In this document: positions 7,123-41,453 of the stretch, piece by piece
Layout of the letters: every line of letters begins with the position of its first letter
How positions within the stretch are numbered: the first letter of the stretch is position 1
Assembly (NCBI RefSeq): GCF_000266885.1
Contig: NC_018020.1
Span: 4,278,001 to 4,342,000, forward strand
Length of the DNA: 64,000 nucleotides
Direction: 5' to 3'
Source of the DNA: Turneriella parva DSM 21527
GTDB taxonomy: Bacteria; Spirochaetota; Leptospiria; Turneriellales; Turneriellaceae
The notes under the pieces: model-generated
Databases searched by the model: none
Told to the model about the DNA's origin: nothing
What the model saw: the letters and a program-made list of their open reading frames with translations, nothing else
Program-made: the position numbers and the translations under genes

Positions 7123-7159
7123 TTACATTTGGTGGGCTTTGCCCACCAAATGTAATCAA
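7119..7159. repeat. Palindrome between convergent genes (bidirectional terminator or REP-like)
   Basis: Perfect 19-bp arms with a TTT loop; the core GGTGGGC-TTT-GCCCACC is a common form of bacterial REP-like element. It overlaps the stop codons of both convergent genes. There is no clear U-run, so termination is only one option. Confidence 0.7.
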
Positions 7160-7989: not shown

Positions 7990-10900
7990 TTAATTCTGAT
8001 CGTTCGCGGTGCGGTAGATTTTCATCGCATTCGAACCGTCGCGGGTGATGATCACGAGCCAATCTTTGCCTGCATCGTTCACGGTCACATGGCTGAAAAT
8101 CTTCTGGTTCGTACCGCCGCCGCCTGATTCGATGCCAGGAAGATTCACAATAGAGAAGCTGGTTTCGGCAGGTCTTGAACCCTGCGCAACCGAAGTCATG
8201 TCAGTTCGCCACACATTTGCCCCATACGTTGCGTTATCAAAGCCCACATAGAGATAGTTGCCGACGAATTCAAGCAGGGTTGCATGGGTGTTCGAAAGGC
8301 ACTGGTTCGGCGAAGTACCGCATGAGCCCGTATTTGAGGCCATGTTTGTCTTCCCCGTAGACCCGTACTCTGCCACGAGCAGCCATGCACCGGCACAGGC
8401 CGCGGCAGTACCGCAGTTCTTGGGTAGCATCCAGAGTTGCGGGACTTCATAGCCTTTCGGACAAACCTGTCGCTCCGTACGGAAGTCAAACCCACCCGCG
8501 CCGTTCGCACCGTTGCGATTTAGAGTCGTGGTGCTACAAGCATTACGCAACATATACAAGTCTCCATTTGGAGCAGTGCGCATGTAAGGGATTGCTTTAA
8601 GTGCTGGCACAAAAATATTGTAGGGCAGCACACAGTCCATTTCTATCAAACTTGTTGCGCAATTGCTTGACCCAGTAATCGCGGAATTCTGTGGGAAAGG
8701 GATCGAGATATATGTGTTCCACTTCGCAAGCGCATCAGGCGTAATATCTTCATAGTATTCGACGCATCCCGATGTCCCCGAAGCACAATTCAACGGCAAG
8801 GACGAGCGTGTCGACCTTGAGAGTATAGTTCGGACAATCCCCCCATCCGAATTAGTTGTCCGGGCTGACCCGAGCGTGCCGCTATAAAAACCTCCATTGG
8901 CGAGGTATAACTGCGATTCATTCCCACCGGCGCCATCATTGTCATGTTCGTACATCACGCTGATGGCATTGAGTACATCCGTGGCGGTATCGCCAACCTG
9001 GCCAGGGCCAGAATAGCCTGTAACGCCAACGAAAGAACCATTGCGCCTCAGGGCACCTGTTGTCGCAGACTGCGCCCCTATCCGAGTTAGCCGACTCATG
9101 TTTGGAAAACCAACATAGCCAAGATAGGCCGTGCCATCAGCGCAACCGCCGACCTTCATACAAACCCGGCCACCGCGACCGCCACCGCCCTGTTCTGCAC
9201 CAAAGTTGACAAATATCTGATCTTTGAACATGATCAAATTGAGCGAACGATAGGCGAAGGAGCCACCAGTATCCCCAGACCATTCTTCAGCGAAAGGGAA
9301 TACGGTGCTGCTGCTGGATTTTGTTGTGGTATGCCAAAAAGAGCGATAGTTACCTTGAGTATTCAGAGCGCCGATAAACATGCTCTCCGTGCCTCCAGCA
9401 GCGGTGCAGGCGGCACCGGTCATGGATGGCGTCGAGGTGCCCCCCACGCAGGCGGCATAAATCGCATCGACCCCACTAATCGTGTTGCTTGAAGAACAAG
9501 GGGTTCCTGGATACGTGATTGAAGCACAACCACTCCATTTCGTCGCGTAGCCATTGAAACTAGAATACGGCGTACCAAATGTCCCATCTGCATCAAGGGT
9601 AATCGTTTGCGCCGTCGTTAAACCAAAGTTCATCTCAAACAGCTTTGTTGAAGCACTATCCGCCCCTAAATATAATTTACTGTCATATATCACAATCGTG
9701 CCTGCGGTTGTGCCGTCGCCAAAGGGGTCACTAAACACCGGGCCACCGGTGAAGCCCGTCGGCGCATTCACAATAACCGGCTGCACGTTGTTAACACCAT
9801 TGTCGAGAATGATATTTGCCTGCAAATCGGTTACATTTTGCACCCGAATTTGGTGACCGCCGTTCGAAAGTGCGGGTACAAAGGTCAATTGAACCTGTGC
9901 GGTATTCGATTGCCGGGCGGCTGTGCTAACTCCAGTGCCATAAGCCTGCGCATCATATTTATAGTTACCGGCCACGTTTGCCGTAACGTTATCAACAGAT
10001 TCGCTGAATGTCAGCAGAATCACTGTCGACCCTGCATTGGCCGCGACGACGCTGGCGCCAATCAAGCTGGGAGGAGTAGTGTCTGTACCGCAGCGAAACG
10101 ACATCGTGCCCGGCAGGGCAATCGTATTGCTGTTTGAATCTTGCACCCCTGTAATCGTCAATTGGTATTGGCTCGTGTCGGTATCAAACGATTGCGTGAA
10201 GTCGACAGCATATTTGTTGCCCCCCATGCTGGTAACGACCGATGCACCATTTGAGTTCGGTGCCCCTGTACCGCTCGCACAGTCGGTGCCGGTTATACAT
10301 CCGGTAATTTTGTAATTCGAGGCGGTAGTCGCCGTGGCACCCACGGCCTGGTCATACTGAACAACAACACGCGTCGCTGCTGGTGCTGAGGGTGGAATAT
10401 TCGTCGGTGTAGGGCACTGCGTTTGCGTATCAGGGCTAATCGTCACCGCCGGCCTGCCATCACCATTAAACGTCGCAGAGTTGTTGGGCGACGACACATA
10501 CCTGCCCGCAGGCGCGGCTACGCCCTGAACCTGCGTCGCCAGTACAGTCGTCGTGTACGCCTGACCCTCGATCATCGGGTTCACCGTCAGAGTGTAGCTC
10601 GCAGAGTTGTTACCCGCGCCAGCAGTCGAAACCGAAGACAATACAGGCAGTGAAAGGTTCTGGTACTTCAGCGCACAGGCAGTCTGGTTCGCGCACTCGG
10701 CGGATGTAGCAAGTACCGATTCATTAAACGTGATCGTCAGCGTCGTCGCTGAAGTCGTCACGATGCTCGCAACCACAGGGTCGACAACACCGTTGAACTG
10801 TGCCTGGTTTGCGGGCAGGCCCGTCGTTGGGTTGGTATTGGTGATAAGGTTGATGTTCGTAAGATCACGCAGCGTGGTATTGACAGTCAGAGTATATGAA

Positions 10901-13900
10901 CTGCCACCTGTCTGGGTGCTCGTTGTCAGGTGAACTATGCGAAAGTTTGCACCGTCGCGTGCCGCAGCACTCACGGTTACGCCGCCGGTGAGCGTATAAT
11001 TACCCGCTACATTCGCCTGCGTGGCAGTCATAGGTTCGCTGAAAGTAACGTCAAGAGACGTCGCCCCAAGCGACACCGCACGCACCGTCACAGGCGCTGC
11101 GCCATCGGCTTCGGTGACGGTACCGACGAATACCTGGGCCATGGCTTGACCGCCGGTAACACCAGGCGTAGCCGTTGTTGTCAGGTCGGGCTTTGCGTCG
11201 GTATCGCAACCCGTCTGCGTAGAGGCATTGCAATCCAGAACATTTTCATTAAACCGAATGTAGATTACTGAATCGTTGGCCGTGTCGGTTGCAAAAGTGA
11301 CGGCGGTACCGTGAATTAAGCGTACACTAGTGTACCCTGCAACCAGCCAATCGGTAGTAACTGTACCCAGAGCATTGGCTACATAGCCTGGGAAAGTGCT
11401 ATCGGATATGTTCTTGCTAAAAGTTACCTGATACGTATCTATTTTCCCGTTGTAGTTGGTATCCAGGGCAAGCGCGCTCGTAATCGTTGGCGCCACATCG
11501 CTATACTCAACACCTGTGACTGAACGCTCGATTGCGGCGTTGCCGGCCACATCGGTACAGTTCCACCGAATGGTATAAAACGTGTCGTCAAGAAGTGGGT
11601 TGCTGGCAAAAGTAATATTCGTTTTTGCGCCGGCATTCAGCTCGCTGCCTGTGAGCGTGCGCACATGAGGACCACTCGGATGGCCTGTGCCGCTGGTGCT
11701 CTGCCACGAAACAGAAGCGCTGGCGCAGTCCTCTGAAAAAGTCATATTCACAGCGCTGCTCGATACAGGCGACGTACCCGATGTCGAATAGCCCGTAATG
11801 TCAGGGACTACCACATCTTTCACGCGCGTGTGTGTCGCTGCGGTACCCACGTTAGACGCAGGATCCGTTAACGTGACACTCAGCGTTACAGTGCCGTCAT
11901 TAAGGCCTGTCAGGTTGATACCCGTGAGCTGTTGCCCCGCAGAAGCCACAGTGCCACTACCAGTTACGTTCGTACCACCACCAGAGCTGCTAAACGTATA
12001 GTTGTACGTCGTACCGACTTCTGCTCCGGTGAACGTGAAAGAAACCGCTGTACGATTGGTGTTGTTGATGTAGCTCTGATCGATCGCTACAGAATAACCT
12101 GTCGGGACAGTCGTATCAACCGTCACCGTTGCGGCAGACGCCACCCATGCAGCAGTATTGCCTGCAAGGTCACGCGACTGAACGCACCCATAATACGCAG
12201 TTCCGTTCACAAGGCTGCCGACGCTAGTGCCAGAGTTTCCGGTCGTCGCACCCACACAGCCCGTCGTACAATCGTTCGCCGTACACATGCGCAGGTTGCT
12301 CGTCGTGATGTTTGTATCAGTACCAGCCGTGAACGTGATCGCTGCTGAAGTCGTGTTCACATGACTCGGTACTGAAACACCAGTCGCCGCAGTCGGAGCC
12401 GTGGTGTCGATAACAACGGTTGCAGCTGAAGCTACCCAGGCAGAGGTGCGACCTGCAAGGTCACGCGACTGAACGCACCCGTAATAAGCAGTGCCGTTCA
12501 CCAAAGAGCTGATCGTTGCCGGGGAGTTACTGGTCGTCGCGCCCACGCAACCGGTGCTGCAGTCATTCGAAGTACACATGCGAACGTTGCTCGTCGTGAT
12601 ATTCGTGTCTGTGCCGGCCGTAAAAGTGATATCAGCTGAAGTTGAAGTCGAATACGCAGGTACCGAAACCGCTGAAGGCGCGGTCGGGTTTGTCGTATCA
12701 ACTGTCACGGTCGCGGCGGAGGCTGTCCACGATGAAGTGTTGCCGGCAAGGTCGCGCGACTGTACGCAGCCATAATACGCTGTGCCATCCACAAGGCTGC
12801 TCACGTTCGCCGGTGAATTGCCTGTTGTGGCCCCTACGCAGCCGGTCGTACAATCATTCGCTGTACACATACGAACGTTACTCGTGGTAATATTGGTATC
12901 TGTACCGGCTGTAAACGTGACATCGGCATTGGCGGCCGTTGTATAAGTCGGCACTGTCACACCGCTGGCCGCTGTGGGCGCGGTCGTGTCGACAGTTACC
13001 GTCGTGGCAGAGGCCACATAAGATGAAGTATTGCCCGCCGTATCAACTGACTGAAGACAGATATAGTAAGCAGTGCCGTTTGAAAGACCGCTCACATCGA
13101 CCGGCGAAGCCACATCGGTGGTCGCTGTCAAACAGCCCGTCGCGCAGTCATTCGACGTACATGCGCGTACATTGTGCGTGCTAAAGTTCGCGTCGGCGCC
13201 ATTTGTATAGGTTACACCCGTAGCGGTTGTGCTGTTTGTGTAGGCAGGCGGCGTAATAGCCGCAGGCGCGGTTGGGTTCGTCGTATCGATAACGAAAGTC
13301 GGTGTCGCCGGCACTGAAGGAGTACTCAAAGTAAGCGTCGCAGTACCGTCAGCATTGGCGCCACCCGCGGCATTCACGGTATAGGTATATGTAAACACAT
13401 TCGGACCACCGGACATCGCCGTGGCTGCAATGTCATTCGTGCCCTGCTGATCGATAGCTATAGTCGGGGCGCTGCCAGGAGCTGATGCATAAGTCGCCGT
13501 TATCGTCAACGTACCCGTGCGAAATGGCCCGGTTGTAATGCCACCCTGATCGTAGGTAATAGTGCCTGAAACAACACCATTGATGTTAAGAGCCTTGTTC
13601 GTGGCCAATGAACCCGCGGCCGCAAGACCCGGAAGCGTCAAAACTGCAGCATTACCAGCGGCATCGGCGATAGAACCGCCATTCAAGGCAAGCGAACTCG
13701 TTGCATCGTAGTTCAAATCTGCATTCATATTGCCAGAGACGACCGTGTAGTTAAAAATCAGCGTATTCGTGCCGCTGCCCGATGCATAGTTTACTGCAGT
13801 CGTTGCCGGCGTACCCGTCGCAAGCGTCAGTTGCGGCGTACCTGTCACAAGAACAACTTCGGGAAACGTCACCCGAATATCCACAACCTGACCGATGCCG

Positions 13901-16900
13901 TAAGTACCATCAGCGAGCGTCGATGTCACATTCGTTGGCTGACCCGGAGCCACAGAATCATAGGTGATCGAAAACGTCTGTGAAAGATCGCTTACAAGAC
14001 CGGTTGCACCGACCGTCGCTATATTAAACTGATTGCTACCCTGCGTGATATTCGTATTGCTCGTGACACTCACCGTATAATTGCCTGAAGAGTTTGAAAC
14101 TGCGGTCGCAAGTTGTATCGGCGTGCGCAGAATGCCCGTACCATTGGTAGTCAGCGGAAGTACGGCGCCGCCTGGCAGCGACGCAAGCTGAAACGTATTG
14201 GCGGCAGAATTCACGACATAATAGGTCGTGTTGATCGAAACACCGGTAGTCAAATCAATCGTTGAAAATGTCACGGGCGTCCCGTTTGACATACCGTGAC
14301 CATTCAGAGTGACAATATCACCCGCGTCGGTGAAAGAAACTGTTGGTGAATAATACAGCACTACGGTTGTGTTCGCAGTCGTGGTGCCCGTGAACTGCAG
14401 GCCTGGGCTCGGAAAAGCAGCGCCGGTAATGTTGTCGCCCAAAGTGCCAGTGTCTGAAGCTACGGCCAGGCTTGCTGTCGCAGGCGCGGTCGCTGAACCA
14501 CTGAAAGTCGCAGAATTAGGAGTGCCAATTATATTGCCGGCTGTATCCGTTAAACCAGTCGCTGTCACCGTATAGCTGTTTGAAGAACCATAAGCACCAG
14601 GTGAAAGTGTAAGGCGTACCTTCGTCGTGTCTGCCTGACGAACTGCAGCTGAAACAGAATTGCCGCCCGTAACTGTATACTTCGTCGCGCAGGTGCCCGT
14701 TGAAGTGCATTCAACAGAAGTCAGGCCCATCGACTCTGTAAATGAAAGCTCAACAGTCGTCGAATTGATCAACACCGCCTGGTAGAGCGTCGGTGCCGTC
14801 ACCGATGAACCGATGCCAGAGAAGTTTACTGTCTGCGAGGACATGATACGTGGTGTGGGAGAAGCTCTGTCCTCAATGTTTCGTACCGTAAGCGCATACT
14901 GAACGGCACTTGTGCCAGGAGCACTCAGCGTCAGAGTACAATATGTATAGGGAGACGGACAATCAGCACTTGCGATACTACCTGAAAGCGCGGGCGAAAA
15001 TGAGTAGTTGTCAGTAAAATTTTCACCGCCGTTCACGCCATTAGAATCATTTACCGGCTCGCTGAAATAAATACGAACCTGCGTATTTGAAAGAGCAGAA
15101 ACTGACACCACCGTAGGTGATGTCTCATCTGTAGCGTCGGTACCAGAATAGCTGAAGTTGGCACTGTTGTTCGTACCGCCAATCGCATTGCCAGCAAGAT
15201 CAGAAACCGTGTTCACAGTTACCGTACACGTCGTTGGGCCAGCCTGTGATACCGTCGTCACTACAAGCTGAACAACACCTGCGCTTACCTGTATCGGAGT
15301 TCCTGTTACAACTGCAGGGCAGCCAACAGGGCCTGAAAGGACAAAATCACCATTATCAATCGTTGCATTGTTGAGTGTTTCATTAAAATTCACAATAACT
15401 GTCGTCGCTGCATTCGACGAAGCACTCGTCACCCGGGGTGCCTGCGTCGAAGTTGGGCCCGTAAATGTACCGCCGTTCGGTACGGTCGTCAGAAGGCCAT
15501 TGCCTGTGGCATCCTGGCCACCCGTCGGGGCAACATCGCTGTATGCCAGCGTGTAGGTCGTACCAGACGCCATTGCCGTAGCCAGGCTAATCCTGACATA
15601 TGGAGAATAATCGCCCGCAGCGCCACCTGTCGGAGAAAGTCTTACTTCAGATATGTCCGTTGCAACCAATGGTGATAGGGTATAATCAAAACCATCGCCC
15701 GCAGTTGTATCGTCGATCGATGACCGTGGCCCGATCGCCTCTGACCATTCTACCATTACTGTGCTGCTATCAACCGGGTAGATTGCCACAATATAAGGCG
15801 CACCGTCGCCGGTAAAGGTCGTGCTGCCGGTTGAAAGCGTGTTTGCAGGTGTTGCGGTGTCTTGAATACCGCCGTCATTGTTCGTGATCGAAAGAGAGTA
15901 TGGCGTCGTCGATTGCTCCGCTGTCGTCAACGTACACACATTGCCTGTGCAGCTGACATTCGTGATATTCAAAGCCGGTGACAGATTAAAATCCGCGATG
16001 CTCGCACCTGTCACGTTCTCTGAAAATGTTACGACAATCGTGGTGCTGTTTGTCGTCGTTACGCCCACAACCGCGGGCGGTGTCGTGTCGGTCGCGGCGC
16101 TGCTCGTGTAGCTGAAGATCGCGCGGTTCGTCGCTGCTGTCAGCGCAGAACCAAGCGCAGACGAAATCGCGGTATTCACCGTAACCGTGCAGGTTCCTGC
16201 TGTGCCTGAAGTCAGGCCTGTTAGAAGAATCTGGCTAGAGTTCACAACAGAAAATGTCGCAGCAGAGGCTGACAAAGCGCCGCAATTTGTAAAAGCATAA
16301 TTGGCGCGTGTCGTCAGAGGTGTACTGTTGACCGCCGGCGTCGGCTGAATGGCGTTCGCCATCGCCTGATCAAATGTTACCAGTACCGAAGTTGACGAAG
16401 TCGATACCGCGCTCAACACGCGTGGCGTCGGCGCCGTGTAGACAAACTGTGCAGAAGCAAATTCTGCCGCATTTGAATTGCCCCACATGTCGCGAAGACC
16501 TGTCTGCCCGCAGACCACATAGGTTGTTCCAACGGTTAGTACAGTGCTTGTTGTCAGGGTAACTTTTGCATAGTTGCTCACATCGCGAACGGCAGTGGCA
16601 ACATTCGTCGACGCACCGCCGCAAGTATTCGCACGTACAAAGTAATTCGTATTTGTCTCTCCGCTCGTTCGATCCACCGCTTCATTGAAAAAAACTTCCA
16701 GAGTGGTCGCAGATGTCGTACCTGCTATAACAGACACTGAACTGAACTGCGGCCCTGTCTGGTCCGCATTTGTCGGCGCTGTGAACGTCGCAGAGTTAGA
16801 GTTGCCGAGAGATGAACCATCCACACCCACAATATTCGAAGCGGTCGCCGTATAAACTGTACCAGATGTCTGCGGAAGTGTATCAATAAAAATGATACTT

Positions 16901-17217
16901 GAATTATTCGGGTCGCGCGAAGCTGCCAGAATCTGCAGAAGATTGCCATTCGGAGCAGTAATGCGGTAATTCGAAACAAGCTGCCCCGAAGCCAAAGTCA
17001 CAGGCTTCGAAAACGTCAGCATCACCCGCGTATTCGTCAGAGGGGTGGCTGTCAATAGCGCGATGTTCGTCGATGAATTCGCTCGAGCGCCGAAAACAAG
17101 GTCAAATGGCTGAAAAAATGTGCTGTAGGTCTTGCCGGTACAGTTCGCCGTCGACATGATAAGGCCGAGTGCGGCCACCTGCGTCAAAATGGTTCGTGCG
17201 AATTTCGTTTTAAGCAT
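7990..17217 (-). CDS. Giant Ig-like repeat lipoprotein 2 (3075 aa)
   Basis: The start ATG 17217 has AGGGAA 5 nt upstream. The signal MLKTKFARTILTQVAALG ends in a lipobox before C27 (TANCTGK). Residues about 50-1300 are tandem bacterial Ig-like modules (VRVTFTEP, VMLTFSKP-type motifs). Residues about 1310-1700 contain four near-identical 97-residue FN3-like units with paired cysteines (MCTANDCTTGCVGATT). Further Ig-like modules follow to about residue 2480. The last 550 residues change character: shorter strands, Gly-rich loops and YLYVGFDNATYG-type motifs suggesting a beta-propeller or lectin-like cap. The probable role is a long outer-surface fibre. The SOR-like lipoprotein A follows after 15 bp. 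Confidence 0.9.
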   Translation of the reverse strand: MLKTKFARTILTQVAALGLIMSTANCTGKTYSTFFQPFDLVFGARANSSTNIALLTATPLTNTRVMLTFSKPVTLASGQLVSNYRITAPNGNLLQILAASRDPNNSSIIFIDTLPQTSGTVYTATASNIVGVDGSSLGNSNSATFTAPTNADQTGPQFSSVSVIAGTTSATTLEVFFNEAVDRTSGETNTNYFVRANTCGGASTNVATAVRDVSNYAKVTLTTSTVLTVGTTYVVCGQTGLRDMWGNSNAAEFASAQFVYTAPTPRVLSAVSTSSTSVLVTFDQAMANAIQPTPAVNSTPLTTRANYAFTNCGALSASAATFSVVNSSQILLTGLTSGTAGTCTVTVNTAISSALGSALTAATNRAIFSYTSSAATDTTPPAVVGVTTTNSTTIVVTFSENVTGASIADFNLSPALNITNVSCTGNVCTLTTAEQSTTPYSLSITNNDGGIQDTATPANTLSTGSTTFTGDGAPYIVAIYPVDSSTVMVEWSEAIGPRSSIDDTTAGDGFDYTLSPLVATDISEVRLSPTGGAAGDYSPYVRISLATAMASGTTYTLAYSDVAPTGGQDATGNGLLTTVPNGGTFTGPTSTQAPRVTSASSNAATTVIVNFNETLNNATIDNGDFVLSGPVGCPAVVTGTPIQVSAGVVQLVVTTVSQAGPTTCTVTVNTVSDLAGNAIGGTNNSANFSYSGTDATDETSPTVVSVSALSNTQVRIYFSEPVNDSNGVNGGENFTDNYSFSPALSGSIASADCPSPYTYCTLTLSAPGTSAVQYALTVRNIEDRASPTPRIMSSQTVNFSGIGSSVTAPTLYQAVLINSTTVELSFTESMGLTSVECTSTGTCATKYTVTGGNSVSAAVRQADTTKVRLTLSPGAYGSSNSYTVTATGLTDTAGNIIGTPNSATFSGSATAPATASLAVASDTGTLGDNITGAAFPSPGLQFTGTTTANTTVVLYYSPTVSFTDAGDIVTLNGHGMSNGTPVTFSTIDLTTGVSINTTYYVVNSAANTFQLASLPGGAVLPLTTNGTGILRTPIQLATAVSNSSGNYTVSVTSNTNITQGSNQFNIATVGATGLVSDLSQTFSITYDSVAPGQPTNVTSTLADGTYGIGQVVDIRVTFPEVVLVTGTPQLTLATGTPATTAVNYASGSGTNTLIFNYTVVSGNMNADLNYDATSSLALNGGSIADAAGNAAVLTLPGLAAAGSLATNKALNINGVVSGTITYDQGGITTGPFRTGTLTITATYASAPGSAPTIAIDQQGTNDIAATAMSGGPNVFTYTYTVNAAGGANADGTATLTLSTPSVPATPTFVIDTTNPTAPAAITPPAYTNSTTATGVTYTNGADANFSTHNVRACTSNDCATGCLTATTDVASPVDVSGLSNGTAYYICLQSVDTAGNTSSYVASATTVTVDTTAPTAASGVTVPTYTTAANADVTFTAGTDTNITTSNVRMCTANDCTTGCVGATTGNSPANVSSLVDGTAYYGCVQSRDLAGNTSSWTASAATVTVDTTNPTAPSAVSVPAYSTSTSADITFTAGTDTNITTSNVRMCTSNDCSTGCVGATTSNSPATISSLVNGTAYYGCVQSRDLAGRTSAWVASAATVVIDTTAPTAATGVSVPSHVNTTSAAITFTAGTDTNITTSNLRMCTANDCTTGCVGATTGNSGTSVGSLVNGTAYYGCVQSRDLAGNTAAWVASAATVTVDTTVPTGYSVAIDQSYINNTNRTAVSFTFTGAEVGTTYNYTFSSSGGGTNVTGSGTVASAGQQLTGINLTGLNDGTVTLSVTLTDPASNVGTAATHTRVKDVVVPDITGYSTSGTSPVSSSAVNMTFSEDCASASVSWQSTSGTGHPSGPHVRTLTGSELNAGAKTNITFASNPLLDDTFYTIRWNCTDVAGNAAIERSVTGVEYSDVAPTITSALALDTNYNGKIDTYQVTFSKNISDSTFPGYVANALGTVTTDWLVAGYTSVRLIHGTAVTFATDTANDSVIYIRFNENVLDCNASTQTGCDTDAKPDLTTTATPGVTGGQAMAQVFVGTVTEADGAAPVTVRAVSLGATSLDVTFSEPMTATQANVAGNYTLTGGVTVSAAARDGANFRIVHLTTSTQTGGSSYTLTVNTTLRDLTNINLITNTNPTTGLPANQAQFNGVVDPVVASIVTTSATTLTITFNESVLATSAECANQTACALKYQNLSLPVLSSVSTAGAGNNSASYTLTVNPMIEGQAYTTTVLATQVQGVAAPAGRYVSSPNNSATFNGDGRPAVTISPDTQTQCPTPTNIPPSAPAATRVVVQYDQAVGATATTASNYKITGCITGTDCASGTGAPNSNGASVVTSMGGNKYAVDFTQSFDTDTSQYQLTITGVQDSNSNTIALPGTMSFRCGTDTTPPSLIGASVVAANAGSTVILLTFSESVDNVTANVAGNYKYDAQAYGTGVSTAARQSNTAQVQLTFVPALSNGGHQIRVQNVTDLQANIILDNGVNNVQPVIVNAPTGFTGGPVFSDPFGDGTTAGTIVIYDSKLYLGADSASTKLFEMNFGLTTAQTITLDADGTFGTPYSSFNGYATKWSGCASITYPGTPCSSSNTISGVDAIYAACVGGTSTPSMTGAACTAAGGTESMFIGALNTQGNYRSFWHTTTKSSSSTVFPFAEEWSGDTGGSFAYRSLNLIMFKDQIFVNFGAEQGGGGRGGRVCMKVGGCADGTAYLGYVGFPNMSRLTRIGAQSATTGALRRNGSFVGVTGYSGPGQVGDTATDVLNAISVMYEHDNDGAGGNESQLYLANGGFYSGTLGSARTTNSDGGIVRTILSRSTRSSLPLNCASGTSGCVEYYEDITPDALAKWNTYISIPFPQNSAITGSSNCATSLIEMDCVLPYNIFVPALKAIPYMRTAPNGDLYMLRNACSTTTLNRNGANGAGGFDFRTERQVCPKGYEVPQLWMLPKNCGTAAACAGAWLLVAEYGSTGKTNMASNTGSCGTSPNQCLSNTHATLLEFVGNYLYVGFDNATYGANVWRTDMTSVAQGSRPAETSFSIVNLPGIESGGGGTNQKIFSHVTVNDAGKDWLVIITRDGSNAMKIYRTANDQN
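12112..13285. repeat. Four tandem ~291-bp coding repeats
   Basis: Units begin near 12112, 12403, 12692 and 12986, each starting with a (V/T)DTT-type linker and encoding about 97 residues. Recurring DNA blocks are visible, for example AAGGTCACGCGACTGAACGC at about 12166 and again at 12460. Each protein unit has four conserved Cys, likely forming two disulphides. Confidence 0.8.
15104..15731. repeat. Near-identical direct repeat, copy B (within giant lipoprotein 2)
   Basis: Partner of 970-1597; about 99% identical by eye over about 628 bp at an offset of 14,134 bp. Direct orientation means recombination would delete the whole tmRNA/tRNA-Phe island. Confidence 0.8.
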
Positions 17218-17848: not shown

Positions 17849-17890
17849 CGGTCATGTAGGGGTAGGTTTAAACCTACCCCTACATGACCG
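17849..17890. repeat. 42-bp perfect palindrome, left of HUH transposase
   Basis: Two 21-bp arms without a loop. The 30-bp core (from TGTAGGGGTAGGTTT to its complement) is shared exactly with 18293-18338. Confidence 0.9.
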
Positions 17891-17911
17891 ACGTGAAAGG
17901 CAGATTATGAT

Positions 17912-18274
17912 ATGAACACACGCAACAAATGGGATCTGCTGTATCATCTCGTCTTCGGCACAAAGTCGAAGGCCGCGTTTCTGACCCCTGAAGTCATAAC
18001 CGACTTACAACTTTTGTTCGCGATCAAGGTGAAAGAACTGCGTGGCGACATTCTGGCCTGCGGCGGCCACGAAGATCATGTTCATCTCTTAGTTTCGATG
18101 CCGCCTAGAGTATCCGTTTCTGAACTTGTCAAGAACCTCAAAGGTTACTCATCGTTCATGCGCCCCGATATCATCTGGCAACGCGGCTTCGGCGCCTTCA
18201 CAGTCGATCGCCGTTCGGTCGACGCGATCATCAAATATATTCAGAATCAAGAAAATCACCACGGTAGAAAATAA
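17912..18274 (+). CDS. tnpA: Small IS200/IS605-type (Y1, HUH) transposase (120 aa)
   Basis: A single-strand transposase of the Y1_Tnp family. The HUH motif is DHVHLLVSMPP (HVH). The following SVSELVKNLKGYSSF block is typical. The catalytic Tyr is expected in IIKYIQNQENHH, near the C-terminus. The family is usually about 140-150 aa; this protein lacks the first dozen and last 20-30 residues but keeps all recognisable catalytic motifs. It is flanked on both sides by palindromes of one family that are its probable substrates or relics. It lies between a SOR-like lipoprotein and giant lipoprotein 3. Confidence 0.88.
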   Translation: MNTRNKWDLLYHLVFGTKSKAAFLTPEVITDLQLLFAIKVKELRGDILACGGHEDHVHLLVSMPPRVSVSELVKNLKGYSSFMRPDIIWQRGFGAFTVDRRSVDAIIKYIQNQENHHGRK

Positions 18275-18292
18275 AAAGAACCGTACATGCAT

Positions 18293-18338
18293 ATCACCTT
18301 TGTAGGGGTAGGTTTAAACCTACCCCTACAAAGGTGAT
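18293..18338. repeat. 46-bp perfect palindrome, right of HUH transposase
   Basis: Two 23-bp arms without a loop, 19 bp after the transposase stop. The arms outside the shared 30-bp core differ from the left palindrome yet remain self-complementary, implying that selection or copying maintains the palindrome itself. Confidence 0.9.
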
Positions 18339-18393
18339 GATGATGGGTACATGACTTACCCCTACACGATCACCACCCCCTACCAGGATGTGA

Positions 18394-21300
18394 TTAATCC
18401 ACCTGTCGGTAGACCTTGATCGCCACCGCGTTCTGGTCACCGACTGTAATATAGACAAAGTTCTGCGAACCTTTGCGCAGACTCGCTGATGAGAAAATAA
18501 ACTGGTTGTCGTTCACCGCCCCCAAGCCGGTAGTGCCCTGCTGTTCGAAACAGCGGTGGCCATCGCCGTTGTTAGCCGTCGTATCACCACCCGTACAGGC
18601 AGTGGTGCCATCGATTTCTGCTATACTCGCCTGGCTGCGGTATACCTGCACGCCCTGACCCGAGGCCACATTATCGAAACCAATGTACAGATAATTGCCA
18701 TTAACTTGCAATAGGCTAATTGCACGTAAGTTAGATCCATTCGGTGTGAAGTTCGAGGCTGTCGCAACCCTCACCCAGCTGGCTGGTGACGTACAGCTAG
18801 CGCTGCATTTCCAAAGTTCTGCGCCATTGTTTGTTTCGCGGTTTGTTACACCGGTTCCCGAAGCCAAATTTCGTGCGGCATAAAGTCGATTGTTCCAAAG
18901 AACAACTAACGGCATACCTTTTTGTCCTGGTCGCACTTTCTCAAGTCCCCCAGTCGCGGGATAGGTCAAAGTTGTACCCCCAAAGCTCGCCTCAGTCTTT
19001 ACCGTTATAAAGCTCGTTTTGCTGATCGGCGCGCCTGTCGCAGATGCAATTCCCCCGTTGTTGAAGAGATAATACGTATTTGCCGGGCTGGGGCTACCAC
19101 CAGTCGGGATATAAATCTGCGCATCAATACCGATTGTGGCGGTATTCTCAGCCGGGTTTCCATTCTGTTTGCCAATATTGATAATTTCGTTGCCGGCCAA
19201 ATCAATAAAGTTACCCGTACATGAAAGTACACCCGAGCTTTCGGTCAGAGCAATCTTGTTCAATATTGGTTTGTTCGTACTGTGTGATGATGCAATACCG
19301 GCATACATGTTTGTTCCGAAGACATAGAGACTCTGCACACTCTTACTGTTTACACCGTTTGTCCCGGTGAAGGTACCGGCGCAAGTTTTCCAATCTAGCG
19401 CAGTGTCGACATCTTGCGTGAAATAGAGTTTGTCGACGTTGTCTTTTACAACACCGGCCATGAGAATCGGCACTTGCGTCGCGCCGTTATCAAAGGTTCC
19501 TGAGTTAAAACCAACAATACCCCGCTCGCCATTGGGGCCAAGCGTTTGGGCGGTACAATTACCACCAGATATCCCAAAGCTCGTGTATGTATACGAGGTC
19601 CCTGTGACGCAAGCGGGCCCGACAGTTGAGAACGTTATGCCCACTGGATTCAAGCCGTCCGCCTCAAAACGGAACGCTGCGTTGTTCTTGTCGTTTGGCC
19701 CAAGATAAATCTTGTTTTGGTAAGAAAACGCAAAATTAAACTTGGTTCCGTCAGAAAAAGGGTCACTAAAGACTGCTCCATCGTTAAAAGTTAGAATCGG
19801 AGTCCCTGCACCCTGGAAAACCGCTTGGTTGCCCGGTGCTGGTTCTAGGTCGTTATTGCCGCCAAAATCTTCAGGTATGCGATTGCCTGTGCTGGTCGCG
19901 TAAATGTTTACAGTGTAGAAGTTACCCTGTTGCGCTGACTGGTGTGTCAGAACATAGACTGATTTATCTGCCGTTGCTGCCACACTGGTAACGTTACCCA
20001 AGCCAACGGGAGTAATCCAGTATTTCGATTGCGAGGTGGGACTATTTGAGACTGACGCATCTGCATCTTCATTAGCGCATACCAAGGCAGAGGCGCATTC
20101 TGCTGAATTCGACCCCGTACCGGTAACCATAGGTTCACTGAAGGTAAGCTCTACAGTGGTTGCACTCAATGATCGCGCGAGCAGCAACCGTGGTTTCGTA
20201 ATGTCCGTGGCGGCTGTTCCCTTTGCGAAGGCAAAGTTTGGTGTCGTTATATTCTCGAACTCATCAATATCCTTGATGGTTGTCAACGCCGTCACTTTGT
20301 AAGTCGTCGTAGAGCACTGTGTCCCGGTTTCGAGGTCGATTACTCGGTTCGAACCGCCCACTGCAGTCGCGCCGGCCGGCGTTGTACTGAAATCAGTACA
20401 ACCCGTATCGGTTGGGTCTTCTGCCACCGTATAGTTCGCTGTGCGCAGCGCTGAATAGGCATTGCTTGCGGCCGCGTTGCTGACCGGTTCTGAGAAGAAC
20501 ACGCGGGCATAGTACTTGTAAACTCCCCCACCGAGGTCTGTCCGGTATGTACTGGCCGCAATAACGTAGGGCGCAGTCGCCTCGGCGATGACCTGTTGGC
20601 GCGAAGTGCTCATGGCGTTTCCTGCCGCATCGTAAATCGACGCAGCCGTAGCTGCCTGCACTTTATCGATGTTCAGGTCGCCTGTATTGAACGTGCCGTT
20701 GGCCGTTGCTTCAAAGAAGGCATCGCCAGTCGCGCAGGTGTCTGAGCTGCTAAAAGCAGCGAAGCCATTTGGTGAAGCGGAGTTACCGTCAACGTACGTG
20801 AAGTCGGCTGCAACCATCTGGCCACCTGAGCCGCAGGCAGAGAATGCTGCATCAGAGGCCACGTTCTCAGAGAAGCTGATGAACACTGAGGCTACTCCGG
20901 ATTTCGCGGTCGCTTTCACGATGATCGGGTTAGCCCCATCTGTTTCAACCACGTTCGCAGTCAGAACATCTGATGAAGTCTGGGTACCGCATGTACCGGC
21001 TCCGACGCTTGTGTTTACGTAGCAACGCGTGGTACCAAGCGCACCGCCGTTGGGACCCGAAAGGCTCTGGTCAGTCGCAGTCAGGTCAGGCTGAACACCT
21101 GTGTCATAAGTTGAACCTTCCGCAAAGCGAATATAAATCGTACTGTCATTAGCGGTGTCTGTCGTCCAGGTCACGGCAGTACCATGAATGAGGCGCACAT
21201 TATTGTACCCCGATACTGCCCATTGGCTTGTGACTGTGCCAAGGCTATTGGCAACATAACCGGGAAACGAATCATCCTGAACAGTGATGCTAAACTGTAC

Positions 21301-24300
21301 CCTGACTGTATCGATGTACCCGTCTGCGTCAGTGTCAAGGTACGTCGCCGAGCTGACAACAGGGCCAACCTGACCTGGGGTAAACGTGCCGCCGATAGTT
21401 GCCGGTGAGGTGACGTTCGCCGGCGCAGATGCCTGATTCGTCGCATTGTCGACAACCGTCGCCTGAGCCAGAAGTTTAATCGTGTCGCCCACCGCCACCG
21501 TCGGTGTTGCATTGGCAAACGTCACCGTCAGCGTGTCGTTCGTGTTGGTTACAGTTGACCAAACAGCTGAAGTGATGTCGCCGGCAGCGCCAAAGTTATG
21601 GCTATTATTCAGCTCGAATATAGTGTCGAGGTCGGTGCCAGCCAGCGCTGCCGCATTCATGCGCTCAGAGAAACGTATCGTGAGCGTATCGCCGGCGCCG
21701 AGACCCGCTTCTGACGCGCCCGCTTCAGCAGCGGTGGCGAGAAAGATGTAAGGGCCGGCCTTATCGGCCTCAACCACATCCGTTGTACCCCAATTGCCGG
21801 TGTTGCTGAAGAGTTTGGTCAAACCATCGGAGTTCGCGGCAAGCGTGTCGTTCGTGCCGGTGACGTCGGGTGTGGTGCCCGTATCGACCGATGCGCCCTG
21901 GTTAAATTTGATATAGATAACCGTATCGTTCGCGGTATCGGTGCCGCAGGCAGCGTTCAGCGCAGTGCCGTGATCGAGGCGTACATTCGCACGACCGGCG
22001 ACAAGCCACTTGCCTGTGGGTAATCCTTCGCTGTTCAAAACATAGCCATCGAATGTGTTGTCGCGCGCGGCAGCGCCGAAAGTAATGCGGTAGTGGTCGA
22101 TGATGCCATCGACCGGGTCGCAGTCGAGCGTTTCTGCGGTCGTTATGCTGAAGGTCACCGCAGCGTTGATGACGATATCTTTGTTCACGCCGAGTGCACC
22201 CGTTGCCGCTGTACCTGGCAAAGTCAGTGTTGCGTCGTTGAGTGCGGCATCACGAATCGTGCCACCGCCGGTGGTCAGCGAGTTGGTCGCACTATAGTTC
22301 AGATCGCTGCTGGTGTCACCAGAAGCAACCGTGTATTCGAACACGAGGGTCGAAGTACCCGAACCTGAAACATAGGTCGCGTTTTTGGCGGGTGATGTAT
22401 TCAAAGCCAGCACTGGCGTGCCGCCACCGGTGTTGACCGTTACTGACTCGCTGAAAGTTATTTGTACCGAGATAACCGCGCCAGTACCGTATGTCGCATT
22501 GGCGTTGGTCGCAGTAACATTGGTCACTGTCGGTGCTGTGGTATCGATCACAATCGCCTTGTTGGTACCCAACGACCCAGCCGCGGTGAGACCGGGCAAA
22601 GTCAATGTCGCACTGTTAGGGTTATTCGTGAAGTTATCGGTAATAGTTCCCGAAAGTGCCCCGGTCGAAGCATAGTTGAGATCAGCCGTGGTGTCACCCG
22701 CCTGTACCATATAGTTGAAGGTCAGTATTGCCGTACCATCGCCGCTCGTGTAATCAATGGCGCGCGTCGTCGATGGATCTGTTGTCGTGAGCGTGATCTG
22801 TGGCGTACCGGAAATCTTGACGGCCTCAGAAAATGTTACCTGAATTGGAACAGCCTGCCCCGCTCTATAAGTACCATCTGCCAGCGACGAGGTAATATTT
22901 GTCACAGTAGGGGCAACACCATCGATGACGATTGCCTTGCTTCCGCCCAACGAAGTACCGCCACCAACAGGCAGTGTCAGCGTTGCGTTGTTGCCAATTG
23001 CATCACGCAATGTACCACCGTTAGCATTGAGGGCCGAGGTATTATTGACCTCGAGATCATTGGTCGATTCGCCGGCCGCAACCGTGTATATGAAGTTCAG
23101 GGTGGTTGTGCCGCTGCCAGAAACGTAATTAACCGCCTTTGCAGTCGGTGACAGGCCCAGCGTGAGCTGCGGTGTCCCACCCGTGGTATTTACGGTTACA
23201 GCTTCGTTGAATACCACCTGTATGCTAATTGAGCCTCCTGTTCCGTAAGTGCCGTCAGCAGTAGAAGAGCTGACGCTCGAAACCGAAGGCCCGGTCACAT
23301 CATACGTGACCGAGGTTCTCGAGACTGCTGTCGCTGCGTTGCCCGCAGCATCGGTGCAGTTAAAAGCTAACGTATAGACCGTATTGCTGACAAGCGTCGG
23401 TGGGTTTGACAGGGTAATATTCGTCTTTGTACCCGATGTCAGCTCTGATCCCGTGAGAGTCGAAGTGCTGCTCGTCGGGTGCCCCGCACCGCTGGTACTT
23501 GTCCAGGCAATGCTGCCACTGGCACAGGTTTCGTCGAGCGTATAACTGACCTGACCACTTGTAACGGTCGTCGAGCTTGCCGGTGAAACCGATGAAATCA
23601 CCGGTGCACGGCGGTCTATAACACTGAGGGCACCAGTTGTCGAAGAACTGAGTGTAATACCGCCCGAAAGACTGTAGATTTCATTGGCTGCGGCATTAAT
23701 CTGCACTGTCTCGCTGCCGCTTGGTGCGGCGTTAAATGCCAGAATTATTCTTACCTGCATTTCCCCGCCAGTCAGGCCACCGCATGCCGTGCTGCCTACA
23801 GTGGTAAGGCAGGTGATGCTTGCCGAAGTCGCACTGCCGCTGCCGGCCATAACCGGAGCCTGAAAATCGCTGGCAGTGAGCGCACCTACACCGGCACTCG
23901 TGCCATATGCAGCCTGGCTGAACGTAATGTCGACGTAACCTGCTGTGGAGCCGGTTCCAGCAGGTAATGCGGGCGCGGTATACGATGCACCTGAAATACT
24001 CGCGATAGAGGCATTGCTCAGGGTTTTCGTATCAGAAGAGAAACTCGCCGCGTTGCCTGCTGAGTCATATACAGAATTGGCTGCTGTAGTGACAGAGATA
24101 GTTTCGACTCCGGTAGGTGTTCCCGTCAGGTTGAAGTTGACGCGTATGACTGTCTCACCGCCCGTCAGCGCAGCACCGGTTGTCTTGGTGATCGTGCCTA
24201 ATGAAGCGGCGGTGGTGCCACCGCCATTGCTGGCAAAATTGAGTGTGAATGCGCTGCCGCCCAGCGGGTTGGGTGCCGTCGCGCTACCATAAACCCCCTC

Positions 24301-27300
24301 GCTGATCGTCACATCGACATAACCTGAGGTGGTATTGTTGGTCAGAGCGTCGCTCACGTGGCTCGGCGCAGTTGTGTCGATGATCATTGAAGTTGCATTG
24401 CCCGATGCCCCACTCTGGTTACCAGCTGAGTCGGTCTGGCGGGCGTTTATCGATGCATAGGTTCCTGCAGTCAGGGTACCGGCAGTAAGCGTCACAGGAC
24501 TGCTCGTGCAGCTCTGTGCAGTACCGGTGGTTGAAGCACCGTTGTATAGCTGCACCGATTCGCCGACCACGCAGGTCACGGTAAACTGCGGTGTGGTTGC
24601 ATTCGTTAGCTTATCTGAATTGGATGTCCCCGTATCGCTACCGGCCACCAGTACCGGTGTACCCGGTGCTGCCGATGCGGTATTGTCAAACGTGATCGTG
24701 ATAACCGGCGACGTGTCGCTCACCGTACCGGTTGAGCTGACTGTAGCTACAGTATATTGCCCAGGGTTCGGTGTTGAAGTTGCAGTGATCGAATAATTGC
24801 CCGACGAATCAGAAGTCACGGAACCCACGATCACTCCTCCATCATAGAGAACCACGGTGGTGTTAGGCGCCACGGTGCCTGTAAATACCAGGCCCGGCGA
24901 CGGGAAGGTTATGCCATTGCCCGTAATATTGTCGGTATTTGAACTACCTGTATCAGACGAAGCCGCGAGGTCAGGTGCAGTCGACGGTGCCGTGCTTGAA
25001 CCGCTAAAGGTCGCACTCGCCGGCGTACCAAGCGCGTTGCCCGCAAGGTCGGTCACTGCATTTGTTACTGTGACGGTATATGTTGTCGAACTGCCAAATG
25101 CACCTGGTGAAATCGTCAGGCGCACTTTCGTTGCATCTGCCTGGCGCACTGCACTGCTTACGGTAATAGTGCCACTGCCTGTGACGCTATAGCTGCCGGC
25201 AGTCTGTGATGTCGTGAGATCCATCAGCTCTGTGAAGGTTACCTCGACGGTGGTGGAGTTGATGAGAGTTGCCATATATACCGTCGGTGCAGTAGCACTG
25301 CCCCCGGTACCGTAGAAACTCAGCGTCTGCGACGCCATCGTGTTGGCAGTAGGCGTCGCCTTATCCTGTATGTTGGCAATCGCCAGCGAGTATTGCGTAC
25401 TCGTCTGCGAAACGCCCGAACCCAACGTCAGCGTGCAAATCGTATCGTTGCTGGTGCAGGCAATGGCCGCACCTGTCAGACTGAGCGTTGGTGAAAAAGT
25501 GTAGTTCGCCAGGTTTCGCGCAGAACCTGCAGAGGTGGTGTCAGAAGCAGAGACGGGCTCGCTGAAGAACAGGCGGATTTCGGTGCTGCTGAGAGAGACA
25601 ACCGACAGTACGGTCGGCTGCGTCGTGTCTGATGTCGCCGAACCAGTATAAGTGAAATCACCCGTCGTCGATGCATTCACTACGCCATAGAGATTGGTCA
25701 CATTGCCGGCCCCAACAGTCATACGGCATGTGCCGTTACCAGTGTTGGCAGTGACTACCAGCTGTATTACACCAGCCTGAACCTGGCTTACAGAAACCGG
25801 GGTCGCCGAAGGGCACGAGCCAGAAAGTACGCTGATCGAAAAGTCACCGGCCGCGAGGGAAGAATTATCGAGCGCCTGGTCGAATGTAACACGCACAGTA
25901 GTCGGATTCACTGCCGTGACTGAGCTGATGATTGGCGCATTGCTGATAGTCGGGCCCACAAATGAACCGCTGTTGGGCAGGGTCATCGGTGAAACAGGGT
26001 TGTTACCGTTCGCATCAGCGGTCGCGACACCTGCGTCAGAGTATGTCAAAGTATATGACGTACCGGCAGTCATTGCTGTGTTAATAGTCAGATCATAAGA
26101 ATCGGACATCGTTGCACCCGATGGATACACGTTAACGGCATCAACGGTTGCACCGTTCACCAGGTAATCCTGTAGCTGGTTGCCGCTCGCAGAAACTGGC
26201 TCAGACCACTGCACCCGTACAGTATTCTGGTCTATCGGAATAATACCGACGATATACGGCTTTCCATCACCGGTGAAGGTCGTCGAAGCGGTCGTCATGG
26301 TGTTGCCGGCTGTGTCGCGTATACCGCTGATGGTGGCCGTGTATGTTTGGGTTGTCTGTGTGCCTGTCGTAATGTCGCAAGATGTCTTGGAGGTATTGCA
26401 GGTGATTGTACCCACAGTGAGCGACGGTGAAAATGTGAAGTTACTGGCAGAAGGATCCTGGATCGGCTCGTTAAAGGTTACGCGCACAGTTGTCGCATTG
26501 ACAGCTGAAATGCTGCCCACTGAAGGCCCCGACACATCCGGAGCCGGGTTATACGGGAAAGAAGCGACGTTATTTGTTGAACTGAGCGTCGCACCGTTTG
26601 TACCGGTTATGCCGGTTGTTGTTACAGTGAGCTTGCAGGTACCCGCTGTCACGCCCGTATTGCCGAGTGACGTCAGCACCACCTGGGTCGAGTTGAGAGA
26701 AGTTGCAGTGCCCATCGTCAGGTTCGCACCAGAGCACTGCGTGAAGTTGTAATTTCCCGCTGTTGTCAGGGCGGCGTTTACGGTCATGGCCGAATCGAAT
26801 GTGACGAGGACTGAGCTGGGTGATACTGATATCGCACTAGAGACTTTTGGTGCAGCTGGTGCAGTGTAGCCAGCAAAAAAGCCGTAACACGTCGGCGATG
26901 CGACTGCATTTCCCCAAATGTCTTTCACGTTGAATGCGCGTAGATAATAAGGCCCAGCACCCAACGCTGGCGTCGTTAGGGTAACTTTGGCAAAATTCAA
27001 GGTATCACGTACGCCAGAGGTTACGGCTGTACCTGAAGTGTCATTGCTGCAATTGGCGCTTGTTGTATAATACTTGAAGTCGGCGCCTGCAAATGTTGAC
27101 GGTGGCATCGTACCAACGACGGCTTTATTAAATGTCACGTTGATTGTGGTCTGTCCTGAAACAACTGCCGCATTTATGGTTGGGGGGGTAACATCAACGT
27201 TGTTGGGTGCAGTATAAGTGCCACGTGAAGCCGACGAGCTCAGGGTTGCGCCGTCGACGCCCACGAGGTTTGCGGCCTGCAGGGTATAAGTACTGCCCGC

Positions 27301-27639
27301 TGTGTGCAGGCTGGTGTCGAGATAAATTACCGAACTGTCGAACGGGTCACGCGTTACCGCGATAACGTCGATGCGGGTACCGTTTGCAGCGGTAATCGTA
27401 TAATTGGCAGACGTTTCAGCAGAGGCAAGACTTACCGGCTTGTTAAACTTAACGCGTACACGCGTTGGTGAAAGCGGGGTGGCGCTGGCCAGACCAACAT
27501 CTACTGACGAGTTCGCCGGCCCAAAGACCAGATCGAAAGGCTGTAATAGCGTGCTGTATGTTTTACCGCTGCAGTTACCCGCAAGCGTTGCCGCGAAAAG
27601 CAGCGATGCGAATTTTGCCTTCATTGAAACTGTACTCAC
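18394..27639 (-). CDS. Giant Ig-like repeat lipoprotein 3 (about 3081 aa)
   Basis: The start chosen is GTG 27639, which overlaps the upstream stop (GTGA) and has GGGGGA 6 nt before it; ATG 27624 (MKAKFASLLFAATLAG) is the alternative. The lipobox is LAGNC, followed by SGKTYSTLLQPFDLVFG as in the other two giants. Residues 50-1000 are Ig-like modules; 1000-2000 include SwmB-like units with the repeated pattern ADGTYGTGAVISVQITF. The final 450 residues resemble the C-terminal cap of paralogue 2 (IYLGPNDKNN, YLYIGFDNVASG, ending IKVYRQVD). It is probably co-transcribed with the regulator and the EVGNP lipoprotein upstream. Cell-surface role inferred. Confidence 0.9.
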   Translation of the reverse strand: MSTVSMKAKFASLLFAATLAGNCSGKTYSTLLQPFDLVFGPANSSVDVGLASATPLSPTRVRVKFNKPVSLASAETSANYTITAANGTRIDVIAVTRDPFDSSVIYLDTSLHTAGSTYTLQAANLVGVDGATLSSSASRGTYTAPNNVDVTPPTINAAVVSGQTTINVTFNKAVVGTMPPSTFAGADFKYYTTSANCSNDTSGTAVTSGVRDTLNFAKVTLTTPALGAGPYYLRAFNVKDIWGNAVASPTCYGFFAGYTAPAAPKVSSAISVSPSSVLVTFDSAMTVNAALTTAGNYNFTQCSGANLTMGTATSLNSTQVVLTSLGNTGVTAGTCKLTVTTTGITGTNGATLSSTNNVASFPYNPAPDVSGPSVGSISAVNATTVRVTFNEPIQDPSASNFTFSPSLTVGTITCNTSKTSCDITTGTQTTQTYTATISGIRDTAGNTMTTASTTFTGDGKPYIVGIIPIDQNTVRVQWSEPVSASGNQLQDYLVNGATVDAVNVYPSGATMSDSYDLTINTAMTAGTSYTLTYSDAGVATADANGNNPVSPMTLPNSGSFVGPTISNAPIISSVTAVNPTTVRVTFDQALDNSSLAAGDFSISVLSGSCPSATPVSVSQVQAGVIQLVVTANTGNGTCRMTVGAGNVTNLYGVVNASTTGDFTYTGSATSDTTQPTVLSVVSLSSTEIRLFFSEPVSASDTTSAGSARNLANYTFSPTLSLTGAAIACTSNDTICTLTLGSGVSQTSTQYSLAIANIQDKATPTANTMASQTLSFYGTGGSATAPTVYMATLINSTTVEVTFTELMDLTTSQTAGSYSVTGSGTITVSSAVRQADATKVRLTISPGAFGSSTTYTVTVTNAVTDLAGNALGTPASATFSGSSTAPSTAPDLAASSDTGSSNTDNITGNGITFPSPGLVFTGTVAPNTTVVLYDGGVIVGSVTSDSSGNYSITATSTPNPGQYTVATVSSTGTVSDTSPVITITFDNTASAAPGTPVLVAGSDTGTSNSDKLTNATTPQFTVTCVVGESVQLYNGASTTGTAQSCTSSPVTLTAGTLTAGTYASINARQTDSAGNQSGASGNATSMIIDTTAPSHVSDALTNNTTSGYVDVTISEGVYGSATAPNPLGGSAFTLNFASNGGGTTAASLGTITKTTGAALTGGETVIRVNFNLTGTPTGVETISVTTAANSVYDSAGNAASFSSDTKTLSNASIASISGASYTAPALPAGTGSTAGYVDITFSQAAYGTSAGVGALTASDFQAPVMAGSGSATSASITCLTTVGSTACGGLTGGEMQVRIILAFNAAPSGSETVQINAAANEIYSLSGGITLSSSTTGALSVIDRRAPVISSVSPASSTTVTSGQVSYTLDETCASGSIAWTSTSGAGHPTSSTSTLTGSELTSGTKTNITLSNPPTLVSNTVYTLAFNCTDAAGNAATAVSRTSVTYDVTGPSVSSVSSSTADGTYGTGGSISIQVVFNEAVTVNTTGGTPQLTLGLSPTAKAVNYVSGSGTTTLNFIYTVAAGESTNDLEVNNTSALNANGGTLRDAIGNNATLTLPVGGGTSLGGSKAIVIDGVAPTVTNITSSLADGTYRAGQAVPIQVTFSEAVKISGTPQITLTTTDPSTTRAIDYTSGDGTAILTFNYMVQAGDTTADLNYASTGALSGTITDNFTNNPNSATLTLPGLTAAGSLGTNKAIVIDTTAPTVTNVTATNANATYGTGAVISVQITFSESVTVNTGGGTPVLALNTSPAKNATYVSGSGTSTLVFEYTVASGDTSSDLNYSATNSLTTGGGTIRDAALNDATLTLPGTAATGALGVNKDIVINAAVTFSITTAETLDCDPVDGIIDHYRITFGAAARDNTFDGYVLNSEGLPTGKWLVAGRANVRLDHGTALNAACGTDTANDTVIYIKFNQGASVDTGTTPDVTGTNDTLAANSDGLTKLFSNTGNWGTTDVVEADKAGPYIFLATAAEAGASEAGLGAGDTLTIRFSERMNAAALAGTDLDTIFELNNSHNFGAAGDITSAVWSTVTNTNDTLTVTFANATPTVAVGDTIKLLAQATVVDNATNQASAPANVTSPATIGGTFTPGQVGPVVSSATYLDTDADGYIDTVRVQFSITVQDDSFPGYVANSLGTVTSQWAVSGYNNVRLIHGTAVTWTTDTANDSTIYIRFAEGSTYDTGVQPDLTATDQSLSGPNGGALGTTRCYVNTSVGAGTCGTQTSSDVLTANVVETDGANPIIVKATAKSGVASVFISFSENVASDAAFSACGSGGQMVAADFTYVDGNSASPNGFAAFSSSDTCATGDAFFEATANGTFNTGDLNIDKVQAATAASIYDAAGNAMSTSRQQVIAEATAPYVIAASTYRTDLGGGVYKYYARVFFSEPVSNAAASNAYSALRTANYTVAEDPTDTGCTDFSTTPAGATAVGGSNRVIDLETGTQCSTTTYKVTALTTIKDIDEFENITTPNFAFAKGTAATDITKPRLLLARSLSATTVELTFSEPMVTGTGSNSAECASALVCANEDADASVSNSPTSQSKYWITPVGLGNVTSVAATADKSVYVLTHQSAQQGNFYTVNIYATSTGNRIPEDFGGNNDLEPAPGNQAVFQGAGTPILTFNDGAVFSDPFSDGTKFNFAFSYQNKIYLGPNDKNNAAFRFEADGLNPVGITFSTVGPACVTGTSYTYTSFGISGGNCTAQTLGPNGERGIVGFNSGTFDNGATQVPILMAGVVKDNVDKLYFTQDVDTALDWKTCAGTFTGTNGVNSKSVQSLYVFGTNMYAGIASSHSTNKPILNKIALTESSGVLSCTGNFIDLAGNEIINIGKQNGNPAENTATIGIDAQIYIPTGGSPSPANTYYLFNNGGIASATGAPISKTSFITVKTEASFGGTTLTYPATGGLEKVRPGQKGMPLVVLWNNRLYAARNLASGTGVTNRETNNGAELWKCSASCTSPASWVRVATASNFTPNGSNLRAISLLQVNGNYLYIGFDNVASGQGVQVYRSQASIAEIDGTTACTGGDTTANNGDGHRCFEQQGTTGLGAVNDNQFIFSSASLRKGSQNFVYITVGDQNAVAIKVYRQVD

Positions 27640-41389: not shown

Positions 41390-41453
41390 GGGAATGTAGG
41401 CTAGCGTTGAGCTTCGACTGAGCGCGCACAGCACTTATGAACAGCAATGAATG

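Follow-up and report, generated by a model that had tools for sequence, protein, structure and literature searches.

REP-like palindromes with private, perfect arms beside IS200-type transposase genes in Turneriella parva

How can two palindromes that flank a small transposase gene share the same centre, differ in their outer bases and still each be perfectly self-complementary? Such a locus lies in a 64,000-nucleotide stretch of the Turneriella parva DSM 21527 genome (the window). From the letters of this stretch, an initial annotation had proposed a compact REP-generating system whose palindromes change by hairpin copying. Here we compare the locus with the rest of the genome and with related genomes. 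The best explanation, which we favour with modest confidence, combines REP-like elements linked to the transposase TnpA with a genus-wide, hairpin-templated copying of arms through template switching.

Results

A short Y1 transposase gene between two loop-free palindromes

Perfect, loop-free palindromes stand on both sides of tnpA, at 17849-17890 (42 bp; 21+21) and 18293-18338 (46 bp; 23+23). They share the 30-bp core TGTAGGGGTAGGTTTAAACCTACCCCTACA, identical at 17855-17884 and 18301-18330, and outside it their bases are unlike each other while each palindrome remains self-complementary. The initial annotation had described the two lengths, the common core and the diverged outer bases correctly in every detail. 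Taking the core as 28 bp (GTAG...CTAC; 17856-17883 and 18302-18329), the private arms are CGGTCAT / ATGACCG upstream and ATCACCTTT / AAAGGTGAT downstream. A degenerate half copy of the core (ACTTACCCCTACACGA; 18354-18369, plus strand), possibly a remnant, lies directly past the downstream palindrome. Rfam matches were spurious microRNA hairpins under the gathering scores. Two giant lipoprotein-like paralogues with many repeated domains (3075 and 3122 aa; 7990-17217 and 18394-27762, both on the minus strand) bracket the transposase unit.

Between the palindromes, where a 120-aa HUH transposase had been proposed, there is indeed an intact Y1 HUH open reading frame of IS200 type (tnpA; 17912-18274, plus strand), with motifs DHVH, WQ and YIQNQENHH. 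The protein matches Pfam Y1_Tnp (PF01797; E 3e-24) and NCBIfam transpos_IS200 (NF033573; E 7e-22, 77.9 bits against a cutoff of 55), and its closest solved structure by profile match is ISHp608 TnpA (E 2e-19). D55-H56-V-H58 and Y109 are intact. The HUH codons (H56-V-H58; 18077-18085, plus strand) fall in invariant alignment columns, as do Y109, N112 and Q113 of the catalytic tyrosine motif Y109-I-Q-N-Q113 (18236-18250, plus strand), and invariance at H56, H58, Y109 and Q113 places the protein among the Y1 HUH enzymes. It does not belong to the class 2 RAYTs: YIQNQENHH lacks the Y-x3-NP pattern, and the NCBIfam model REP_Tyr_transpos (NF047646) yields 19.5 bits where the cutoff is 80. Compared by motif and length only, it has the signatures tabulated for TnpA-Y1 subclass 1.2 (DH[IV]H, WQ, Y-x3-Q-x2-HH and low copy number; PMC6006769) but neither the C-terminal domain of about 30 aa nor the absence of REPs; the protein ends 11 residues past Y109. 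The tnpA stop lies 18 bp ahead of the downstream palindrome, and the C terminus of a TnpA at L017 (1360-1433) runs through its own palindrome (peptide LVATRGHGFKPVATR).

The core is dispersed, with private arms at each copy

We searched the whole T. parva genome (4,409,302 bp, two contigs) for the 28-bp core GTAGGGGTAGGTTTAAACCTACCCCTAC and found 12 exact copies and one with a single mismatch, against a chance expectation of about zero. Eleven of the 13 lie away from tnpA, so the core is not confined to the window locus, a point on which the initial annotation had made its proposal depend. Because the genome has only three, diverse Y1 genes and most core copies are solo palindromes, we rejected dispersal as whole-element IS copies (palindrome-tnpA-palindrome). 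The core found no match in plasmids, nor did degenerate core patterns in viral contigs.

Perfect private arms at the 12 exact copies measure 6, 11, 9, 1, 7, 6, 9, 10, 4, 8, 7 and 9 bp. In 11 of them the palindrome thus extends perfectly for 4-11 bp beyond the core and then ends; the copy at 813420 ends after 1 bp, and the extension expected by chance is 0.33 bp. Outer arm sequences are private to each copy, although two T-rich arms are alike. That arms differ at nearly every copy led us to reject the idea that they are part of a longer conserved repeat.

The only two further Y1 genes in T. parva are each bracketed by a loop-free palindrome family of their own (GCCACGGGTTT / AAACCCGTGGC and GCC[AC]CCGAATT / AATTCGG[GT]GGC), and these families have about two dozen dispersed copies, likewise with private perfect arms. 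Mean private arms are 7.25, 7.1 and 6.5 bp for core halves of 14, 11 and 11, indicating that arm length is independent of core length. A weak bias (YYCATTW) remains in the arms of the GCC.CCGAATT family, so possibly not every arm is copied flank. Related palindromes accompany the tnpA genes of the sister species G002 and G004. In G001, a tnpA remnant has the window's core type on either side; it is 59% identical to the window TnpA and no more than about 41% identical to other Turneriella TnpAs. Among other members of the class, most TnpAs with Y-x3-Q-x2-HH are surrounded by two hairpins, which tend to be shorter or to contain a small loop; a small number have one hairpin or none. A TnpA scan of genome contigs returned 25 homologues, of which one has the long-palindrome architecture; it is not an independent case, being a Turneriella MAG that matches G002:C2. 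No long palindromes were found around viral TnpA relatives.

A tnpA gene bracketed by a palindrome family that is also dispersed in the genome is the architecture of a REPtron. Anatomically, the reading of the window locus as a REP system is well supported by the dispersed cores, by the separate family for each of the three tnpA genes and by the sister-species remnant with the same palindrome type; it is as anatomy that the proposed compact REP-generating system holds up.

Hairpins without the core have similar arms

Perfect hairpins with an arm length of 13 bp or more number 28 in the 400 kb of T. parva DNA surveyed, and 18 of these reach 17 bp or more. Most of the 28 are unique, and 24 have loops of 1-6 nt; unique perfect hairpins of 17-23 bp are numerous in T. 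parva. In 200 kb of E. coli DNA sampled for comparison, there was no perfect hairpin with an arm of at least 17 bp. Palindromes with arms of at least 10 bp and loops of at most 5 nt number 12 in the window but 0, 0 and 1 in mononucleotide-shuffled windows, and these shuffles together with the E. coli sample rule out a chance origin. Arms of 17-20 bp occur 3.9 times per 100 kb in T. parva, 0.5 in G004, 0.2 in G037 and 0 in E. coli, an excess that gives T. parva arm lengths a second peak near 19 bp. Private arms are therefore not specific to the tnpA-linked repeats. Unique hairpins in the same genus, unrelated to these repeats, show arm copying too, and on present evidence this behaviour is not creditable to TnpA.

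Conserved genes fix the direction of copying

In four cases, comprising two tRNA 5' ends, the start of ispD and a gene end, one arm falls within conserved sequence and is matched by a reverse-complement arm on the other side. A hairpin at 41515-41562 (arm 22 bp, loop CCAT) matches the palindromes in geometry but is unrelated to the core. Within it, the first 13 nt of the adjoining tRNA-Met gene (41453-41527, minus strand) recur in inverted orientation; there is no hairpin at the orthologous tRNA-Met site in G001. At L236:19190-19228 (chromosome about 639190), the arm is the first 17 nt of tRNA-Arg, inverted. In both hairpins the 5' end of the tRNA gene serves as one arm, and its exact reverse complement sits outside the gene, directly upstream; if they were transcribed together with the tRNA, these inverted copies would base-pair with its 5' end. 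A hairpin in G001 (site L011) carries an inverted copy of the ispD start. Replication template switching creates reverse-complement copies and repairs stems (PMC8794818), and an arm that is the reverse complement of adjacent conserved sequence, as at tRNA-Met, tRNA-Arg and ispD, is what it would leave.

The gene end is at site L012, where the core lies between convergent genes. The left gene ends in RFCIGK-stop with or without the palindrome, whereas the right gene ends in AIFGHR-stop only in the two palindrome-bearing species and in AIFGSR in three others. The change to a His codon turns the right arm into the reverse complement of the conserved left gene end, and, as protein length is unchanged, sequence was overwritten rather than added.

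Comparison of orthologous sites revealed paired changes. The 23-bp perfect hairpin at L236:14693 differs from its counterpart L304 in G005 by four mirrored pairs with zero mismatches, L012 differs from L023 (T. parva versus G001) by two mirrored pairs, and a hairpin upstream of a gene (L137 versus L178) by several. Pooling all aligned sites gave 62 compensated, 49 G-T and 145 mismatched pairs; the excess of mismatches over compensated pairs stems from the many relatives that lack a hairpin at the site, so the pooled counts are not decisive and the case for paired change rests on the individual sites. The initial annotation had argued that self-complementarity maintained through changing sequence implies hairpin copying. 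The inverted tRNA and coding copies and the paired orthologue changes bear this out, with the amendment that it is not a property of this transposase alone.

Two core copies common to T. parva and G005 (L008/L024 and L119/L157) have arms of 1 and 0 bp in both species; that they stayed armless indicates that arm growth is not automatic. With one genome per species, relatives' flanks mostly 3-40% different and hypervariable sites, the comparison contained no clean within-species empty site. Palindromes also occur in frame inside genes, where they add a short peptide: in an AAA ATPase gene (L018 2556-2595, chromosome about 1285550), in an ABC transporter gene (L135 620) and in the FeoB linker of G005 (L022 1501). 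In this they resemble the Rickettsia palindromic elements. The AAA ATPase and feoB copies had seemed likely to offer clean empty sites, but both lie in hypervariable linkers; at the feoB site, two relatives have other palindromic inserts.

Discussion

Five observations bear directly on the explanation that we favour: the dispersal of the core, the single palindrome family per tnpA, the private perfect arms, the one-directional inverted gene copies and the paired changes between orthologues. The locus would be a minimal REPtron-like unit with a single-strand-specific Y1 HUH transposase. Its most likely substrate is the flanking loop-free palindrome, which TnpA would bind through the shared core and may spread, or may once have spread, as small non-autonomous copies. 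Mobilisation of the core in this way would explain both the one-to-one pairing of tnpA and palindrome and the dispersal of solo copies. The private outer arms would be reverse-complement copies of each palindrome's neighbouring sequence, produced when a hairpin extrudes during replication and the nascent strand folds back, switches template and is extended by several nucleotides copied from its own flank or from the opposite arm. Such fold-back synthesis could make or restore perfect arms and let both arms change together. Template switching would account for arms at solo palindromes and at core-less hairpins alike, for the overwritten codon and for the paired changes.

The arms might instead be older than the palindromes. 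If TnpA targeted single-stranded hairpin loops at replication forks, palindromes would insert at the centre of pre-existing hairpins such as terminators and leaders, and each private arm would be an older outer stem. At several resolvable sites, a relative without this palindrome does have a different hairpin in the same spot (L006 versus G005, with TAGAGACGCGC CATA; L120 versus G001; L009 versus G005). L131 and L186 (G005) have the outer arm TATCGACAT in common around different centres, and L012 and L059 (G005; AGGCAAGTA...) are different hairpins with shared outer arms. We nevertheless regard this account as unlikely. Unique hairpins mostly have loops, yet almost every copy of the palindromes pairs perfectly all the way to the core, and no loop bases remain; the arms are about 7 bp in all families; and G004 has neither a hairpin at L012 nor the His codon that completes the arm. 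Arms made during insertion, as an inverted target duplication in which the 3' end of the hairpin primes the copying of about 7 nt of flank before sealing, would fit the constancy of arm length whatever the core length. They would also fit the presence of arms on nearly all core copies even though these, being identical, are probably young, and the copies common with G005 that stayed armless point the same way. Hairpins without the repeat core share the geometry, however, including those at tRNA 5' ends, and at L012 the arm replaced sequence and left the length of the neighbouring protein intact, which makes this origin of the arms quite unlikely. It is rather unlikely, too, that the TnpA-linked palindrome itself inserts by such a duplication, with a single-strand hairpin priming a flank copy of about 7 nt to leave X-P-X' in place of a direct repeat or no repeat. 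If true, this would be a new transposition outcome, and a self-sustaining one because perfect arms restore the hairpin substrate.

Selection on RNA is the least probable source of the arms, which would then be those of bidirectional terminators or leader hairpins kept by compensatory mutation. Terminator-like features do mark some unique hairpins (L237:11720, with TTTTTTTT after it; L236:9811 and L244:7056, with A/T tracts in their arms), and several palindromes lie between convergent genes. Arms also reach into tRNA genes and coding ends, however, and a terminator role makes no sense for the in-frame palindromes of the AAA ATPase gene and of feoB in G005. Nor does the stem shared by L236:14693 and L304 show any G-T or mismatch intermediate among its mirrored pairs. 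Template switching joined to TnpA-linked palindromes remains the reading that we prefer.

Compared with known systems, the locus resembles REPtrons and RAYTs (TnpA-REP; PMC2817692, PMC6006769) in having a Y1 HUH gene bracketed by dispersed palindromes with one family per single-copy tnpA, in the GTAG/CTAC ends, as in 'double foot' REPs, and in palindromes that also lie in frame within genes. It differs from class 2 RAYTs in the Y-x3-Q-x2-HH motif, where RAYTs have Y-x3-NP, and from these systems in palindromes that are loop-free and perfect, bear private arms and are low in copy number (13 to about 20 per family). IS200/IS605 TnpAs of subclass 1.2 (Quentin et al. 2018, PMC6006769) share with it DHVH, WQ, Y-x3-Q-x2-HH, low copy number and a short core protein. 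That subclass, mainly from Cyanobacteria and Bacteroidetes, is described as having a specific C-terminal domain and no REPs (PMC6006769), whereas the T. parva tnpA genes are bracketed by palindromes and the window protein ends soon after the Y motif. The PATEs of Haloquadratum (PMC3119063) are likewise small, transposase-free palindromic derivatives of IS605-type ends, but they are about 52 bp or longer, with near-terminal palindromes and no private inverted arms described. Template-switch mutation and quasipalindrome correction (PMC8794818, PMC7202029) also give reverse-complement copies beside the site and restore stem pairing in one event; in Turneriella the process would recur throughout a bacterial genus, and its targets would be mobile palindromes as well as hairpins flanking tRNA genes.

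These comparisons extend a REPtron-like organisation to an IS200-type TnpA with the signature of a subclass described as lacking REPs. They also present Turneriella as a genus whose genomes record how perfect hairpins are created and rewritten in concert, with tRNA and coding sequence fixing the direction of copying. It becomes testable how palindromes spread and whether compensatory stem changes come from a single templated event or from selection acting on mutations one by one.

Further palindromes of the window and the order

Additional long perfect palindromes lie in the window at 7118-7160 (arm 20), 7851-7884 (arm 17) and 41610-41651 (arm 20 bp); the second (TCACTAGCCATGGGCTT / AAGCCC...) resembles a member of the TAGCC type. 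A separate repeat family, CCCCTCTCCA...TGGAGAGGGG, is present at 33410-33434 and 33480-33504 and also at L035, L138 and L289, in several Turneriella genomes. G044, which belongs to a different family of the order, has two identical perfect palindromes of 60 bp near a tnpA gene (L199 830-889 and 1459-1518), the longest loop-free palindromes met beside a tnpA gene in this analysis.
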